Shown in pieces: positions 39,307 through 45,656 of a DNA stretch of 51,317 nt. The position numbers and the translations under genes were made by a program. Position 1 is the stretch's first letter. The number at the start of each line of letters is the position of its first letter. The DNA lies in contig CAIUGM010000017.1 in the NCBI GenBank assembly GCA_903898675.1, positions 1 to 51,317 on the forward strand, written 5' to 3'. The DNA is from an uncultured Verrucomicrobiota bacterium. GTDB taxonomy: Bacteria; Verrucomicrobiota; Verrucomicrobiia; Opitutales; Opitutaceae. Below the pieces are notes generated by a model, which made no database searches, had not been told where the DNA came from, and saw only the letters and a list, made by a program, of their open reading frames with translations.

Positions 39307-40143
39307 GTGTTCCCGAAACGCTTCGACCAGGCCCGACCTTTCCTCACGCTGGGCATCGTGCTGCTCGCGTGGCTGTTCGTGCCGCTGGCGGTCAAGTCGT
39401 TCACGCGCGCGACCTTTTTTGAGATCCAGGCACCGCTCGTCGTCGCCGACTCCTACGTGCAGTTTCTCCAGACCTTTTGGTCGAACCGGATGCACTCCAA
39501 GGACGAGCTGCTGCAGGCCGGCCAGCAGGTCGCCGGCCTCATCGCCCAGTACGACTACAGCACGCAGCAGAACCAGCAGCTGCAGGCGGAAATCCTCCGG
39601 CTGGAAAACCTGCTCAACCTCCCGCCGATGCCGGCGTTCCGCTTCGAGCCGGCCCGCGTCGCGCGGCGGGACTTTTCCGGCTGGTGGCAGCGCATGGTCA
39701 TCCGCAAAGGCGAGAATTACGGCATCCCGGTCGGCGCGCCCGTCGTGTTTTCCGGCGGCGTCGTCGGCCGCGTCACCGAGGTCCACCGCTACACCGCCGT
39801 CGTCGACCTGATCACGAGCCCGACCTTCCGCCTCGCCGCCACCGCCTCGGGCGACAACCGGCCGGTCAGCTACCAGGGCGGTTTGAACGACTCCTTCAAG
39901 TCGCCGCGCGGCATTGTGGAATTTGTCCCGCTGGACATCTACGCCACCCGCACCGCAACCCGACGGCTGGTGACTTCCGGACTGGGCGGCGTGTTCCCTC
40001 CCGGCCTGACCATCGGCGACATCACCAACCTGGAGTCCAGCGCCGACGGCCTGTTCAAGCTGGGTGAGGTGCAGCTCGACGAACGCCTCGGCTCGCTGAC
40101 CGAGGTCACGGTGCTCGTACCGCTCAATCCGGAGGAGTTGTGA
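39307..40143 (+). CDS. mreC: Rod-shape-determining protein MreC
   Basis: A 278-aa bitopic membrane protein of the elongasome. A single N-terminal membrane helix (LTLGIVLLAWLFVPLAV) is followed by a coiled coil (~75-105, TQQNQQLQAEILRLENLL). Then come two beta-barrel domains (DFSGWWQRMVIRKGENYG, GVVGRVTEVHRYTAVVDLI) that contact PBP2. The start is GTG at 39307. The gap to mreD contains a 130-base palindromic element, unusual for an operon in which mreC and mreD normally abut. Confidence 0.95.
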   Translation: MFPKRFDQARPFLTLGIVLLAWLFVPLAVKSFTRATFFEIQAPLVVADSYVQFLQTFWSNRMHSKDELLQAGQQVAGLIAQYDYSTQQNQQLQAEILRLENLLNLPPMPAFRFEPARVARRDFSGWWQRMVIRKGENYGIPVGAPVVFSGGVVGRVTEVHRYTAVVDLITSPTFRLAATASGDNRPVSYQGGLNDSFKSPRGIVEFVPLDIYATRTATRRLVTSGLGGVFPPGLTIGDITNLESSADGLFKLGEVQLDERLGSLTEVTVLVPLNPEEL

Positions 40144-40202
40144 AGCGCATGGGTTTATTTCAACTGGTGGTGGAGCGGGTTGAACCCAACACGCTGGCAG
40201 CA

Positions 40203-40332
40203 ACACACCCCGCCCTTTGGGCATCAGCCTTCGCCAAGACTATGGCCGACCAGCCCTTCTCTAGAGGGGATCCAAACCAAGACTTCCGGAAATCCCCTCT
40301 CGAGAGGGGTGGCGCGCAGCGACGGGGTGTGT
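40203..40332. repeat. Gene-less ACACACCCC/GGGGTGTGT palindromic element inside the mre operon
   Basis: This 130-base unit begins ACACACCCCGCCCTTTGGGC and ends GACGGGGTGTGT, with inner palindromes around CTCTAGAGGGGAT and ATCCCCTCTCGAGAGGGG. Its last 40 bases (40293-40332) match 42876-42915 at 39 of 40 positions, and its first 21 match 43324-43344 exactly. Compared with 43324-43361 its left half holds ~30 extra bases. It fills the mreC-mreD gap and lacks an ORF. Confidence 0.8.
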
Positions 40333-40338
40333 AACGCC

Positions 40339-40872
40339 ATGCGTAGATCCGATCCCCGCTGGCTCATCGTCTTCCTCGCCAACCTGCTGCTGTGGTGGCT
40401 GACCGGCATGGCGAACGACTACCTCGCGACGTTCTCCGTACACCTTTACCTGGGCGGCCTGCTGGTCGCCTATGCCTCGCTCCAGGTGGACCGCCAGCAG
40501 GGATTTGTCGCCCTCATGCTGACCGGCCTGATGGTCGACTCGGTCGAGCCCGTGCCGTTTGGCACCAGCATGCTCCTGTTCGGCGTGGTCCACGCCACGC
40601 TCGTCTACGGGCGCCAGCGCCTGCCGCGCGACGGTGCGATTTTCGGCACGATCGCCGCGCTGTTTTCCAATCTCTTCCTTTTCATCGCCCTCTCCTTCCT
40701 GCTCGTCGGCGCCAACCCGCGCCCGGGCGAGGCGTGGCTCCGGCTTTTCGTCGACCTCCTCGCCTCCCAGGTGGTCATCATCGTCATCACGCCCTGGTTC
40801 CTCGCGCTGCAATCGCGCGCGATGGAGTTCGCCCAGATCCACCCCGAGACCGGCCGGCGCCTGACGCTTTGA
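40339..40872 (+). CDS. mreD: Rod-shape-determining protein MreD
   Basis: A 177-aa polytopic membrane protein with about five helices (WLIVFLANLLLWWLTGM, YLGGLLVAYASLQV, LFSNLFLFIALSFLLVG and others), the elongasome's integral-membrane partner of MreC. Sequence conservation in MreD is low, so the call rests on helix pattern, size and position between mreC and mrdA. The ATG at 40339 starts right after the palindromic element. The reading frame is open back through the element to 40180, so a longer start cannot be excluded, but those codons are element sequence. mrdA follows after 29 bases. Confidence 0.85.
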   Translation: MRRSDPRWLIVFLANLLLWWLTGMANDYLATFSVHLYLGGLLVAYASLQVDRQQGFVALMLTGLMVDSVEPVPFGTSMLLFGVVHATLVYGRQRLPRDGAIFGTIAALFSNLFLFIALSFLLVGANPRPGEAWLRLFVDLLASQVVIIVITPWFLALQSRAMEFAQIHPETGRRLTL

Positions 40873-40901
40873 TTATCGCCGGGATCTGACTCCTTTGCCT
40901 C

Positions 40902-42800
40902 GTGAGCCGCCTCATCGAAACCCACAGTTCCCGCAACCCGCGCCTGCTGCTCTTTTACGGGATCATCAGCGGCCTGCTGACGCTGCTGGTCTGCGGTCTG
41001 GCCTACCGCCAGTTGTTCAAGACCGGCCTCTACAGCGAGCGCGAGCGCCTGCAGAACCAGCGCCGCGTCATCTTCCCCCGCCCGCGCGGCAACATCTATG
41101 ATCGCGACGGCCGCGTGCTGGTCGGCAACCGCGCCCGCTTCTCGGTCGTGCTCGATCTCGCGCAGCTCCGCGGCGAATTCCGCGCGGAATACCGGAAGGT
41201 CGAGCGCAACTACAGCTCGATGGACCGGGCGGAGCGCCCGAATTTCGACCAGCTGGAGCGCATCTCCCGGGCCAGCGTGGTCCAGGGTTACCTCGACAAG
41301 CTGAACTTCATCCTCGGGCGGAACGAACTCGTCCGCGCCACCGAGCTCAACCGGCACGTCAGCCAGACGCTCCTGCTGCCCTATGTCCTGCTCGATGACC
41401 TCGCGCCCGAGGAATACGCGCGGCTCATCGAGCGGCTGCCGGTTACCTCGCCGCTGCAGGTGTACACCTCGAGCACCCGTTACTATCCCTTCGGCTCGGC
41501 GGCGGCGCACACCCTCGGCTTCATCGGGATCAACAACGACCCGGAGGCGGAGGATTTCGGCGACGAGGACCTGCTGACGTTCAAGATGAAGGGCAGCAGC
41601 GGGCGCACCGGCCTCGAAAAGGTTTTTGATGAGCAGCTGCAGGGCGAATCCGGGGGCGCGGTCTACCGCGTCGATCCCGCCGGCTACAAGGTCGACCGGC
41701 CCATCGAGCAGCGCCGGCCCGTCCAGGGCCATGACATCTCCACCAGCCTCGATATCGAGCTGCAGCAGGCGGCCGAGCTGGCGATGGTCGGCCGGACCGG
41801 CGCGGCGGTTGCCCTCGACATCAAAACCGGCGAGGTGCTCGTCCTCGCTTCCAAGCCCGATTACGACCTCAATACCTTTGTGCCGCGGCTGACCCAGGAC
41901 GAGGCCAAGGCCATTGAGACCTCGGGTGGCTGGCTCAACCGCACGATCCAGGGTCAATATCCGCCCGGATCCACGTTCAAGGTCATCACGTCGACCGCCG
42001 GCCTCCGCAGCGGCGCCATCGAGCCGGGCGCCTCCAAGGTCATCTGCCCCGGCTACCTGATGGTCGGCAACCGCCGCTTCCCGTGCGACGGCATCCATGG
42101 GGAGGTGGACCTCGTCAAGGCGATCCGCGTCTCGTGCAATACGTTTTTCTACAGGTACGGCATCGAAACCGGCCCCGATCTGCTGGCCGCCGAAGCGCAT
42201 CGCTTCGGCTTCGACCATCCCACCGGAATTGAGCTGCCGTATGAGTTTTCCTCGCCCCACGTCGCCAGCCCGGCGTGGAAGAAGGCAAACATGCACCTGC
42301 CCTGGACGGCCGGAGACACCGCCAACACGTCCATTGGCCAGGGTGACACCCTCGTAACCCCGCTGCAGGTCGCGTGCATGGTGGCGTCCTTTGCCCGGGG
42401 CGAAACCGAGACGAAGCCCACCCTGCTCCACGATCCCAAGCGCGCGCCGCAGCACACGACCGCCATCGGACTCGCCCCGGCGGACTACAACGCGATCCTG
42501 GAGGGCCTGGCCCAGTGCTACCAGTTTGGCACCGCCCGCCTGGCCAACGTCGAGGGTCTGCACGCGGCCGCCAAGACCGGCACCGCCCAGAAAGGTCGCA
42601 TTGATCTCGCCTGGATGATCGCCTTCGCCCCGATCGAGAATCCCCAGATCGCCATTGCGGTCGTGATGGAGGGCACGGAGCCCGACGTCAGTTATCACGG
42701 CGCCTTTTTCGCCGCGCCCATCGTGAAGAGCATCCTCACCGCCTGGAAGGAAAAGAGCGAGCGCGAGCCGCTCAAGCCGGTGAGCTTCAAGGTGGATTGA
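40902..42800 (+). CDS. mrdA: Penicillin-binding protein 2 (elongasome transpeptidase)
   Basis: A 632-aa class B PBP that cross-links peptidoglycan during elongation. It has one N-terminal membrane helix (LLLFYGIISGLLTLLVCGLA), the PBP dimer/pedestal domain starting at RPRGNIYDRDGRVL, and the transpeptidase domain with all three active-site motifs: S357-T-F-K, S411-C-N and K558-T-G-T-A. The start is GTG at 40902. It closes the mreBCD-mrdA operon. The elongation glycosyltransferase gene rodA, which commonly follows, is absent; the DUF559 cassette lies there instead, so rodA must be elsewhere. Confidence 0.96.
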   Translation: MSRLIETHSSRNPRLLLFYGIISGLLTLLVCGLAYRQLFKTGLYSERERLQNQRRVIFPRPRGNIYDRDGRVLVGNRARFSVVLDLAQLRGEFRAEYRKVERNYSSMDRAERPNFDQLERISRASVVQGYLDKLNFILGRNELVRATELNRHVSQTLLLPYVLLDDLAPEEYARLIERLPVTSPLQVYTSSTRYYPFGSAAAHTLGFIGINNDPEAEDFGDEDLLTFKMKGSSGRTGLEKVFDEQLQGESGGAVYRVDPAGYKVDRPIEQRRPVQGHDISTSLDIELQQAAELAMVGRTGAAVALDIKTGEVLVLASKPDYDLNTFVPRLTQDEAKAIETSGGWLNRTIQGQYPPGSTFKVITSTAGLRSGAIEPGASKVICPGYLMVGNRRFPCDGIHGEVDLVKAIRVSCNTFFYRYGIETGPDLLAAEAHRFGFDHPTGIELPYEFSSPHVASPAWKKANMHLPWTAGDTANTSIGQGDTLVTPLQVACMVASFARGETETKPTLLHDPKRAPQHTTAIGLAPADYNAILEGLAQCYQFGTARLANVEGLHAAAKTGTAQKGRIDLAWMIAFAPIENPQIAIAVVMEGTEPDVSYHGAFFAAPIVKSILTAWKEKSEREPLKPVSFKVD

Positions 42801-42875
42801 GGGCGGGGATTTTCCCTTCAGCTTGGGCGAGGCCCTTCCGGCAAGAGAAATATCCGCCTGATACCTCTGAAAAAG

Positions 42876-43361
42876 TCCCCTCTAGAGAGGGGTGGCGCGC
42901 AGCGACGGGGTGTGTTCTGGATGTACGCGAACTATTATGGAATATCGCCGCATAATACTCCCATACAATCCACAGCTCAAAAAACTGGCCCGCGCCCTGC
43001 GCAATCAAAGTACGCTCAGTGAGGTGTTGCTCTGGCGCCAGCTGAAAGCTCGTCAGCGCATGGGCTATGACTTCCACCGTCAGCGACCGATTGATGAATA
43101 TATCGTGGATTTTTTTGCGGCCGATTTGATGCTGGCCATTGAAATCGATGGGAAATCCCACCGCCTGAAAGGCCCCGAGGATGACGCCCGGCAAAGGAAA
43201 CTGGAATCGCTTGGAGTGAGATTTCTGCGCTTTAAGGATTCCGTGGTAAAATCGAACTTGGATCCTGTTGTGCGGGCGATTGATGACTGGATCGTGACCA
43301 ATATGACCAAGCGGTGATTCTTCACACACCCCGCCCTTTGGGCACCCCTCTCTAGAGGGGA
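42876..43361. mobile_element. Palindrome-flanked cassette with a DUF559 nuclease gene
   Basis: Inverted arms bound the unit. The left arm (42876-42915) starts TCCCCTCTAGAGAGGGGTG and ends CGACGGGGTGTGT. The right arm (43324-43361) starts ACACACCCCGCCC and ends CCCTCTCTAGAGGGGA. Both arms keep the 19-base XbaI-like palindrome block and the GGGGTGTGT tip but differ in the ~11 bases between. The tips point inward to the DUF559 gene. The gene's stop is 6 bases from the right arm, and its ATG is 21 bases from the left arm. A gene-less relative is at 40203-40332. Confidence 0.75.
42937..43317 (+). CDS. DUF559 / Vsr-like endonuclease-domain protein
   Basis: A 126-aa protein of the DUF559 family, a Vsr-like branch of the PD-(D/E)XK nuclease superfamily. 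The core is visible: LRNQSTLSEVLLWRQLKARQ (helix with the conserved Glu), GYDFHRQRPIDEYIVDFF (catalytic Asp in VDF) and LMLAIEIDGKSH (the ExD/K-type strand). The end RKLESLGVRFLRFKDSVV is also typical. The protein looks intact. It is flanked by inverted palindromic arms and lies between mrdA and the convergent transglutaminase gene. Its codon use is less GC-rich than both neighbours, suggesting transfer. DNA cleavage activity is expected from the family but its target is unknown. Confidence 0.85.
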   Translation: MEYRRIILPYNPQLKKLARALRNQSTLSEVLLWRQLKARQRMGYDFHRQRPIDEYIVDFFAADLMLAIEIDGKSHRLKGPEDDARQRKLESLGVRFLRFKDSVVKSNLDPVVRAIDDWIVTNMTKR

Positions 43362-43386
43362 TTTTTTTTGCCGATCGATGTTTGAG

Positions 43387-43436
43387 TCCCCTCTCGAGAG
43401 GGTGGCGTTCTGCCGGCCAGCAGAACGAAGGGGGGT
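43387..43436. repeat. Variant right half of the ACACACCCC palindromic element
   Basis: Starts TCCCCTCTCGAGAGGG-TGGCG as in 40293-40313 (one G missing), then a different tip: hairpin GTTCTGC/GCAGAAC and GGGGGG. Together with the right arm at 43324-43361 it makes a complete palindromic unit next to the DUF559 cassette. Confidence 0.55.
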
Positions 43437-43448
43437 ATCGCCCGCGCC

Positions 43449-45656
43449 CTACCTCTGCGTGGTCCGCCGCACTTTTCTCGCCCGCTTGAACACGCCGCGC
43501 GGTTCCGGCCAGGTATCCCGGCGGCCGTAGCGCAGCCGCCGCAGGTCGGCGAGTACCTCGCCGGCTTCCGGCACCGGGCGTACCCGCGCGAGCCACCGGC
43601 CCGCTTCGCGGCGCACCGGATCGTATTCCTCCGGCCGGCGCCAGGCCTGCCAGCGGCGCCAGCCGGAGCGGCCCAGCCACCACGCCGCCCAGCCGGCCGC
43701 CACGCCACCGACCAGCAGCCCGCCCAGCCGCACCGCGCGGGCCGGATCCCACGGCCGCGCGAACCAGGCGCGCAGGCGCTTGGTGAACTCGTCCAGCCGG
43801 GTGCGTAGGATCTGCCCGGAATCCGTGGTGAAGGACTTCACCTGGTCGATCATCTGCACCTGCGTGCGCGAGTCGAAATTGACGATGCGCCGGTACCAGA
43901 GCACGCGCAGGCTGTCCATCCGCGCCGACCAGCTGCTGTCCTGCACCTGCCGCTCCGTGGCGGCATTCCGCTCGGCGGCCGTGGTGACCGCCCCGGGCGT
44001 CGGGTCGACGCGCAGCCAGGCACTCGCCCCGTCGTAGATTTCCGTCCAGGCGTGGGCGTCGGAGTTGCGCACCATGAAATAATTCTCGAAGCCGTTCAGC
44101 ACCCCGCCGTGGAACCCCGCGATCACCCGCGTCGGATAGCCCGCCGCGCGGGCCAGCACGGTGAATCCCGCGGCAAAATATTCGCAGAAACCGGGCTCGC
44201 TTGAATCGAGCCAGCGCACGATGTCGTCCTTCCCCTCGCCGCGCGGCAGCTTCACCGCGAGCGTGTAGGCATGGTGGGCCTGCAGCCACGCCGTCGCCCG
44301 GCGGCCGAATTCCGCCGCGGACAGCGGCCGGCCGCCGGTGATCTCGGTGACGATCCGCGCCAGCACCTCCTGGTTCAACGGCCCCGCCGGCCCGCGCAGG
44401 CTGGTGAGCGGATCGTAACGGTACTGGTCGTTGCCGCCCGCCGGCGGACCGGCGCGGGCGGCCTTCAGGAGCGAGGTGAAGCGGGCGTCCGCCAGCACGG
44501 GCGCGAGGTCCACCTCGTCGAGCTGGAACGCCGTCATCGTCATCGGCTCGGTGCGGAACGCGACGAGCCGGTGGCCGGCGTTGGTCTGCACCGGCACGGG
44601 CTCGCGCAGGCGCAGCATGCCGTAACTGCCCGGCAGGGGCAGGAAGCGGCTGACCCCGGGCTCCACATAAAAGGTCCACACGCCGCCGACCGGGTTGTTG
44701 TCCCGGCCAAGCGAGCGCCCGCGCACCTGCTGGACCACGCGCTGGCCGCGCAGCAGCTCGCCCTTGAGGCCCGACGAGATCTTGAAACCCTCGGGGGTGT
44801 ATTCATCCAGCACGACCAGCCGCCAGTAGGGCGACTCGTGCAAGCCGCTCGAATCGGTAAGATCCACCCGCATCGCGACGCTCTCGTCGCGGATCAGCTC
44901 GCTGACATCGCCGAACTTGACCGAGTCGGTGAAACCGGTGTGGCTCTTCCGGGTGATGTATTTGTCGAGGAAGAAGCCCGTCGCCAGCTCGAAGCGCGGG
45001 ATGACGATGAACAGCAGCGCGGACATCGCCACCACCGCCGTGAACAGCGCCGTCGCGAACGCCAGCAGCCGCCAGTCGGCAACGCTGCGCAGCCGGCCGA
45101 AGAACTTGCGCGCATCGATCCGCGTCCAGGCCGTCTCCGCCTCCCTCGTCCGGGCCGGCCCGGTCTCGGAGGCGTCGATCAGGTTGATGACAAAAAGAAA
45201 ACCCAGCGCGCAGGCGGTGAACAGCAGCAGCAGAAAGGCGAAGCCGATCGACACCGTGAGCACGCCCGCCACCACGATCAGGAAAAGCCCCAGGACGATC
45301 AACTGCAGGTCCTCGCGTTTTCGCCGGTACGCCACCGCGCGGTAGAGGACCAGCAGGATGGCGAGGCGGATGAGCACCGGCAGCGTGTCCGTGCTGAAAT
45401 AAAAATCCGCCACGAGGGTGATGATGATCGCCGGCACCGCGAGTTTCCACACCAGCGCCGGGACCCGCCCGGGCAGTTCCGGCCAGATCAGCGCCGCGAG
45501 GATCACCGCGCCGGCCACGCCCACGAGGCCCAGGGCCTCGATATCGAGAAAGAAGACCGTCCACAGCGAGACCAGCGCCATGGCTCCGCCCAGCAGCCAT
45601 TTCAGCCGCCGCAGCTCGTCCAGGTTAAGCTGACGCGGTTTTGTGACCGTCGACAT
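43449..45656 (-). CDS. Membrane-bound transglutaminase-like protein (DUF3488 + transglutaminase core)
   Basis: A 735-aa membrane protein. The N-terminal ~230 residues contain about seven membrane helices (DUF3488-like; GGAMALVSLWTVFFLDIEAL, LLLLFTACALGFLFVINL). A large extracytoplasmic region follows with the transglutaminase/protease core: Cys491 (GFCEYFAAGFTVLARAAGYP), His535 (DAHAWTEIY) and Asp551 (WLRVDPTPG). A further helix (~650-665) leads to a basic C-terminal tail. It overlaps the DUF58 gene by 32 bases. moxR - DUF58 - transglutaminase is a widespread cluster of unknown exact role, probably in envelope stress or protein complex maturation. The ATG at 45656 is preferred over an upstream in-frame start. 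Confidence 0.9.
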   Translation of the reverse strand: MSTVTKPRQLNLDELRRLKWLLGGAMALVSLWTVFFLDIEALGLVGVAGAVILAALIWPELPGRVPALVWKLAVPAIIITLVADFYFSTDTLPVLIRLAILLVLYRAVAYRRKREDLQLIVLGLFLIVVAGVLTVSIGFAFLLLLFTACALGFLFVINLIDASETGPARTREAETAWTRIDARKFFGRLRSVADWRLLAFATALFTAVVAMSALLFIVIPRFELATGFFLDKYITRKSHTGFTDSVKFGDVSELIRDESVAMRVDLTDSSGLHESPYWRLVVLDEYTPEGFKISSGLKGELLRGQRVVQQVRGRSLGRDNNPVGGVWTFYVEPGVSRFLPLPGSYGMLRLREPVPVQTNAGHRLVAFRTEPMTMTAFQLDEVDLAPVLADARFTSLLKAARAGPPAGGNDQYRYDPLTSLRGPAGPLNQEVLARIVTEITGGRPLSAAEFGRRATAWLQAHHAYTLAVKLPRGEGKDDIVRWLDSSEPGFCEYFAAGFTVLARAAGYPTRVIAGFHGGVLNGFENYFMVRNSDAHAWTEIYDGASAWLRVDPTPGAVTTAAERNAATERQVQDSSWSARMDSLRVLWYRRIVNFDSRTQVQMIDQVKSFTTDSGQILRTRLDEFTKRLRAWFARPWDPARAVRLGGLLVGGVAAGWAAWWLGRSGWRRWQAWRRPEEYDPVRREAGRWLARVRPVPEAGEVLADLRRLRYGRRDTWPEPRGVFKRARKVRRTTQR

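Follow-up and report, generated by a model that had tools for sequence, protein, structure and literature searches.

A gene for a Vsr-like PD-(D/E)XK nuclease of the DUF559 family lies between inverted palindromic arms in the genome of an uncultured Verrucomicrobiota bacterium (Opitutaceae); the window, i.e., the whole stretch of DNA analysed, comprises 51,317 nucleotides of contig CAIUGM010000017.1. The explanation towards which we lean, on balance, is a REP/REPIN-like system in which this nuclease is the dedicated enzyme in place of RAYT, spreading or maintaining the repeats by acting on the folded palindrome or its tip. We lean towards it because one enzyme gene is bordered by repeats, many gene-less repeat pairs are found elsewhere, and the palindrome is specific to the protein subfamily.

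Direct reading of the sequence placed the gene, at 42937–43317 of the forward strand, between two arms. The left arm (42876–42915, forward strand; TCCCCTCTAGAGAGGGGTGGCGCGCAGCGACGGGGTGTGT) consists of a T, the palindrome CCCCTCTAGAGAGGGG (42877–42892), a second hairpin GGCGCGCAGCGAC (42894–42906) and the tip GGGGTGTGT (42907–42915), and the right arm (43324–43361, reverse strand; ACACACCCCGCCCTTTGGGCACCCCTCTCTAGAGGGGA) of the tip ACACACCCC (43324–43332), a second hairpin GCCCTTTGGGC (43333–43343) and the palindrome CCCCTCTCTAGAGGGG (43345–43360), followed by a terminator-like T run. The palindrome block and the GGGGTGTGT tip are common to both arms in inverted orientation, with unlike short hairpins between them, and a repeat search of the window revealed the pair to be 96% complementary over 25 nt, bearing out what the first-pass annotation had claimed of the arms. 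The general plan of an arm is a palindrome CCCCTCT-n-AGAGGGG, an optional second hairpin and the GGGGTGTGT tip.

A second right-hand arm (43387–43438, forward strand) falls outside the originally reported coordinates (42876–43361); it contains the palindrome CCCCTCTCGAGAGGG (43388–43402), a long second hairpin (43404–43427) and a degenerate tip. The layout of the locus is, hence, arm, gene, arm-spacer-arm, with a two-arm element making up the right side. A gene-less two-arm element, with no strand assigned, lies between mreC and mreD (40203–40332); an additional segment is inserted in its left arm, and its right arm (40293–40332) is, as previously claimed, identical to the left arm of the gene at 39 of 40 bases by eye, with the repeat search giving 95% identity over 43 nt (42873–42915 against 40290–40332). 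Allowing up to three mismatches, the palindrome gave 9 strand matches in the window versus a mean of 0.07 in 100 shuffles, and no Rfam match was obtained in 40100–43500 up to E = 1. Single arms did not stand out in folding, many of their shuffles doing as well (z = −1.5, −2.6 and −0.8), and a complete arm pair from one copy in the related genome G012 folded far better than its shuffles (z = −6.6).

The DUF559 frame is the only one between the arms, with no partner transposase gene, and its product matched PF04480 with E = 1.2e-26 and 93.1 bits, compared with a curated cut-off of 20.6, and gave no Pfam match to the Y1 transposase family PF01797; the initial description as a Vsr-like nuclease gene lacking a transposase was, thus, confirmed. 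The ATG at 42937 is the likely start codon, since most relatives start near there, in which case the GTG at 42892 would merely read through the left arm. The deduced protein has 126 amino acids, and its residues E29, D58, E69, D71 and H75 (E, D, E-x-D, H), which we take to be the pattern named "EDxHD", do not vary across the 40 proteins aligned, so the predicted active site is intact as judged from sequence. An AlphaFold model of 125 residues (mean pLDDT 89.0, pTM 0.84) matched two structures in Foldseek below E = 0.001, namely NGO0050 (3hrl, E = 3.3e-7) and the homing endonuclease I-Bth0305I (3r3p, E = 2.4e-4); Vsr itself (1vsr) appeared at E = 0.2. Sequence profiles matched the same two structures (3hrl, E = 2.8e-29; 3r3p, E = 1.2e-4). 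An anti-phage system was set aside as an interpretation, the PADLOC match being weak (mREase_II, E = 1.9e-4).

In the genome of origin, G000 (3.52 Mb, 40 contigs), the count of copies with and without the gene that had been proposed yielded 19 palindromes of the form CCCCTCTN{1,5}AGAGGGG versus one PF04480 match; a narrower pattern gave 20 strand matches, and the reversed pattern gave none. In 60 stretches surrounding palindromes, taken from five members of the genus (G000, G007, G011, G012 and G016), a fixed pattern recovered 32 complete arm pairs of 90 to 132 bp (median 102), with a spacer of 24 nt in 18 of them and unlike second hairpins, one being of the GCCC..GGGC type, in all 32. Copies lacking the gene are REPIN-like pairs of arms, ~100 bp long, at many unrelated places, and their tips point outward, as opposed to inward beside the gene. 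The second hairpin varies freely in sequence while its foldability is kept: no more than 5 of 100 shuffles folded as well as or better than the variant itself for 35 of 46 segments from the genus and for 19 of 29 long segments from other phyla, with the reservation that 8 of the 29 and, by eye, 2 of the 46 contain a second palindrome and do not represent a second hairpin alone.

Occupied and unoccupied versions were observed at four loci, answering the earlier call to look for empty sites in relatives. Within the genus, the gene is for the most part confined to a single position downstream of mrdA, where G000, G009, G011 and G017 carry the DUF559 unit; the copy in G009 is frame-broken, and another repeat is seen in its upstream part (L071). 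At the same site, G012 has a lone arm, the matches to both neighbours are 34 to 70 bp apart in G002, G006, G008, G010 and G014, and G001, G015 and G018 have other spacers. The gene is missing there in at least 10 relatives with both neighbours in view, the downstream neighbour being absent from view in G003, G005, G007, G013, G019 and G020. In G016 (C1) and G004 (C244), a Y1-transposase-like gene with other repeats fills the place of DUF559; it matched PF01797 with E = 1.2e-5 in G016 and was judged by eye in G004.

The mreC–mreD element is present in G000 and G011, i.e., in 2 of the 18 genomes listed, and a half element lies in frame in ybeY in G000 and G012, likewise 2 of 18; in both ybeY copies (L260 and L204), another REP-like segment is nested inside the arm. 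At the fourth locus, putatively aroA–cmk by eye, a pair is found in G012, and the genes are a few bases apart in G004 and G009. For this sole aligned occupied/unoccupied comparison, the difference of ~170 bp exceeds the element length, and, therefore, neither a clean boundary nor a target-site duplication can be stated.

G011 carries a second DUF559 gene elsewhere, with its upstream arm intact, which is the sister of the mrdA copy of that genome (support 99/99). Together with the site polymorphism, this copy supports part of what had been proposed for the locus. The part of the proposal that does not stand is classical homing, which copies an element into the matching empty allele. According to that scheme, the nuclease would cut the empty allele, the gene and its arms would be copied in by repair, and gene-less copies would be decay products. 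The match to I-Bth0305I by fold and by sequence and the presence or absence of the gene downstream of mrdA speak for it, but the gene-less copies are ordered two-arm units at unrelated places, and since their tips point the opposite way to those of the gene-bearing form, they are not simple deletions of a cassette. As the sole mechanism, homing was rejected for the dispersed pairs, and we consider it improbable as an account of the locus. Because gene-less pairs occur at many unrelated places and the gene mostly at one, the arms are better seen as a REP/REPIN family served in trans by the nuclease than as sites recognised within a single homing cassette, as had been suggested.

The best 80 of 550 relatives from a species-genome scan (47–69% identity) were compared with 70 loci of other DUF559 genes, comprising 23 viral contigs, the 30 highest-scoring Flavobacteriaceae loci, 12 plasmid loci, 4 from the order and 1 from Neisseria. 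The palindrome CCCCTCT-n-AGAGGGG (class I) was counted up to 350 bp upstream and up to 450 bp downstream of the gene. It was present upstream in 46, downstream in 53 and on both sides in 37 of the subfamily loci, making 62 of 80 with at least one, versus 1 of 70 among the other DUF559 genes; farther flanks of the same 80 loci contained 16 matches in 498,611 bases. Eighteen of the 80 had no class I palindrome nearby and 22 had no recognisable arm. Upstream, the tip of the nearest arm faced the gene in 36 of 43 cases, and downstream, in 33 of 47. Going by their record titles, these 62 loci belong to about ten phyla (Bacteroidota, Zixibacteria, Opitutae, Glassbacteria, Neomarinimicrobiota, Cloacimonadota, a Pelosinus, Paceibacterota, Ignavibacteria, Nitrospirae and Thermotogae), although many are metagenome-assembled genomes, whose single placements may be wrong.

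Many of the 70 other loci bear different palindromes. As class I is nearly confined to subfamily loci, we conclude that the palindrome follows the protein subfamily. The pattern scan found no class I palindrome in the 23 viral DUF559 contigs; a phage origin, for which one phage record and these contigs had been matched, was rejected with 0 of 23. Repeats of at least 12 nt shared between both flanks, irrespective of class, were found at 50 of 75 loci of the subfamily, compared with 167 of 3359 control windows, at 7 of 8 loci versus 0 of 10 in the genus and at 12 of 17 versus 67 of 530 in the viral-contig set. The top-scoring Flavobacteriaceae set, many members of which are DUF559 domains inside other genes, was hardly above its control (8 of 30 versus 6 of 57). 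Looser palindrome classes II–V had no control of their own, also occurred in the 80-locus set (4, 0, 3 and 7 loci) and are leads only. Among individual loci, DUF559 genes on cyanobacterial plasmids (L314, L318 and L323) are flanked by CCCCC..GGGGG palindromes, with an inverted common stretch of at least 40 nt in the flanks of L323, and similar palindromic stretches flank the Neisseria gene (L338), which probably belongs to the same family as NGO0050, whose structure is solved.

The link was also apparent at the level of whole genomes, with the proviso that all p-values given here are optimistic (too small), as the genomes tested share descent. Of 299 Flavobacteriaceae genomes picked regardless of DUF559, 41 had at least one palindrome, 2 had the reversed pattern and 143 had PF04480; DUF559 was present in 20 of 22 genomes with at least two palindromes versus 123 of 277 others (p = 1.4e-5), and dropping 31 genomes with a best E weaker than 1e-6 gave 20 of 22 versus 92 of 277 (p = 1e-7). 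The two exceptions are G549, with 9 palindromes mostly of other spacing, and G579. Among 95 relatives of the window, any PF04480 match occurred in 7 of 11 palindrome genomes versus 9 of 84 others (p = 2.3e-4), and the close subfamily, which was set by hand, in 7 of 11 versus 0 of 84 (p = 3e-8), the test with all PF04480 matches being the weaker version. Of the 80 subfamily genomes, 48 were scanned, and the palindrome was present in 41 of these with up to 110 copies and in none of the remaining 7. Of 288 genomes in a phylum-wide pattern scan, 15 matched, and at least two palindromes were seen only in G000, G012 and G018; single matches were about as frequent as in the reversed-pattern control, and little can be learned from this sample.

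Within the genus, the palindrome pattern was found in 10 of 21 genomes and DUF559 in six, all of them within the ten; in G020, DUF559 is present only as a fragment at a contig end. Palindromes without a PF04480 match were found in G012, G016, G018 and G083. The first-pass annotation would have been put in doubt by arms scattered over genomes with no tie to DUF559 genes; arms do occur away from such genes, but arm-bearing genomes were enriched for them in two samples. The strongest evidence against the nuclease as the driver comes from G012, a single contig with 45 palindromes and no PF04480 match, in which 13 of 23 fetched copies (L206–L224) lie inside a larger repeat with ACTCCGTYAG-type ends that may be moved by another machinery. 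Gene loss after expansion and movement by the larger repeat would both fit this pattern. The latter touches on a less likely but serious alternative, in which the repeats move by other machinery, e.g., RAYT, and DUF559 is cargo caught between two of them as a composite unit. The Y1-transposase-like gene at the mrdA site of G016 and G004, the four genomes with palindromes and no DUF559 and the G012 copies agree with such capture; it does not predict that a single subfamily is associated with the palindrome at 62 of 80 loci in some ten phyla versus 1 of 70.

The nuclease may, further, be viewed as a host repair or hairpin-processing enzyme, with the arms tolerated or used as terminators or regulatory hairpins. 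In PMC12907096, the Caulobacter DUF559 protein VsrA is described as required for the SOS response in cells without the ScmA methyltransferase. In the window, the right arm with its T run is terminator-like by score. In four Cytophagales loci (L106, L112, L119 and L162), DUF559 lies, by eye, directly 3' of a ruvB-like gene with no arms between, which looks like a fixed place; in L162, one palindrome follows the DUF559 gene. Dispersed copies, co-occurrence and subfamily-specific palindromes are left unexplained by a repair role, which we regard as rather remote, and a function as terminator only was rejected, since, even with one arm scoring, neither dispersal nor co-occurrence would follow from it.

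In the REP/REPIN-like system that we favour, the nuclease would recognise the palindrome and tip, most likely in folded or single-stranded form, and cut or nick there; repair or re-insertion of the cut element would then give rise to new, mostly gene-less copies elsewhere in the genome, with the arm-bordered gene persisting mainly by vertical descent and occasional moves. We infer recognition, cutting and the causal role of the nuclease in spread from the arrangement described above. Were the palindromes driven by their DUF559 nuclease, a large family with no known function would obtain a role, namely the spread or maintenance of repeats, a task hitherto assigned mainly to an unrelated enzyme. 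It would represent a non-HUH route of small-element spread, and the nuclease–palindrome pairs would be ready-made, testable recognition partners.

In three of three Flavobacteriaceae loci checked (L284, L285 and L287), the DUF559 domain lies in frame within leucyl-tRNA synthetase (leuS), by the editing domain, and frames of similar size were seen in 17 of the 30 highest-scoring loci of that family. Domains in frame inside or fused to hsdR (L052 and L065), hsdM (L050) and hemD (L288) have REP-like peptides at their borders. Should DUF559 drive its palindromes, such passages through leuS, hsdR, hsdM and hemD would amount to a new entry route of a nuclease into host proteins. A broader and tentative reading, to which we attach less than even belief, is that the DUF559 family in its entirety supplies the dedicated enzyme so far missing for a large, unclassified superfamily of bacterial palindromic repeats (tip, link, palindrome), and that the nuclease can insert itself in frame into essential genes, e.g., leuS. 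Each subfamily might then have its own palindrome, i.e., CCCCTCT-AGAGGGG here and CCCTCTCC-GGAGAGGG, CCCCTCC-GGAGGGG and others elsewhere, and a REP-mobilising system would be built on a PD-(D/E)XK nuclease. No report linking DUF559 with palindromic repeats was found in the open-access literature searched; with subscription journals and preprints largely outside its reach, novelty is unproven.

Among known systems, the Vsr mismatch endonuclease is a distant relative in fold, differing in that 1vsr was matched only at E = 0.2, and the unit departs from DNA transposons and MITEs in having no partner transposase gene. EDxHD homing endonucleases such as I-Bth0305I are similar in fold (3r3p), in active-site pattern, with EDxHD-type residues in 40 of 40 proteins, and in mobile-gene behaviour; in contrast to these, the present system has dispersed gene-less palindromes, and the surroundings of the window gene revealed neither an intron nor an intein. 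Bacteria commonly carry REP-type repeats, of which only the GTAG class is known to have an enzyme. In the REP survey PMC3733652, the CGTC-tagged REPs (dRS3, RPE-4 and RPE-6) are reported to lack a dedicated transposase. The 2,085-bp stretch around the Neisseria DUF559 gene contained no dRS3-like repeat and had other palindromes on both sides, leaving CGTC/dRS3 REPs unsupported as DUF559 partners at the one Neisseria locus read. CGTC-tagged REPs resemble the present family in being palindromic, mostly paired and without a known RAYT; their stem sequence differs from that of the window arms. Rickettsia palindromic elements are in-frame repeats in coding genes, to which the ybeY half element of G000 and G012 is comparable; they differ in sequence, and the link to a nuclease gene sets the present family apart from them. 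The closest comparison is with REPIN–RAYT systems. There, the partner is a Y1/HUH transposase and the tag is GTAG, whereas here, a Vsr-like PD-(D/E)XK nuclease lacking any HUH or Y1 domain is the partner and the tag is GGGGTGTGT. In both, a dedicated small nuclease gene, mostly one or few per genome, is bordered by its cognate short palindromes, inverted gene-less pairs are dispersed elsewhere (32 in 60 loci of five genomes here), and the palindrome differs by protein subfamily.
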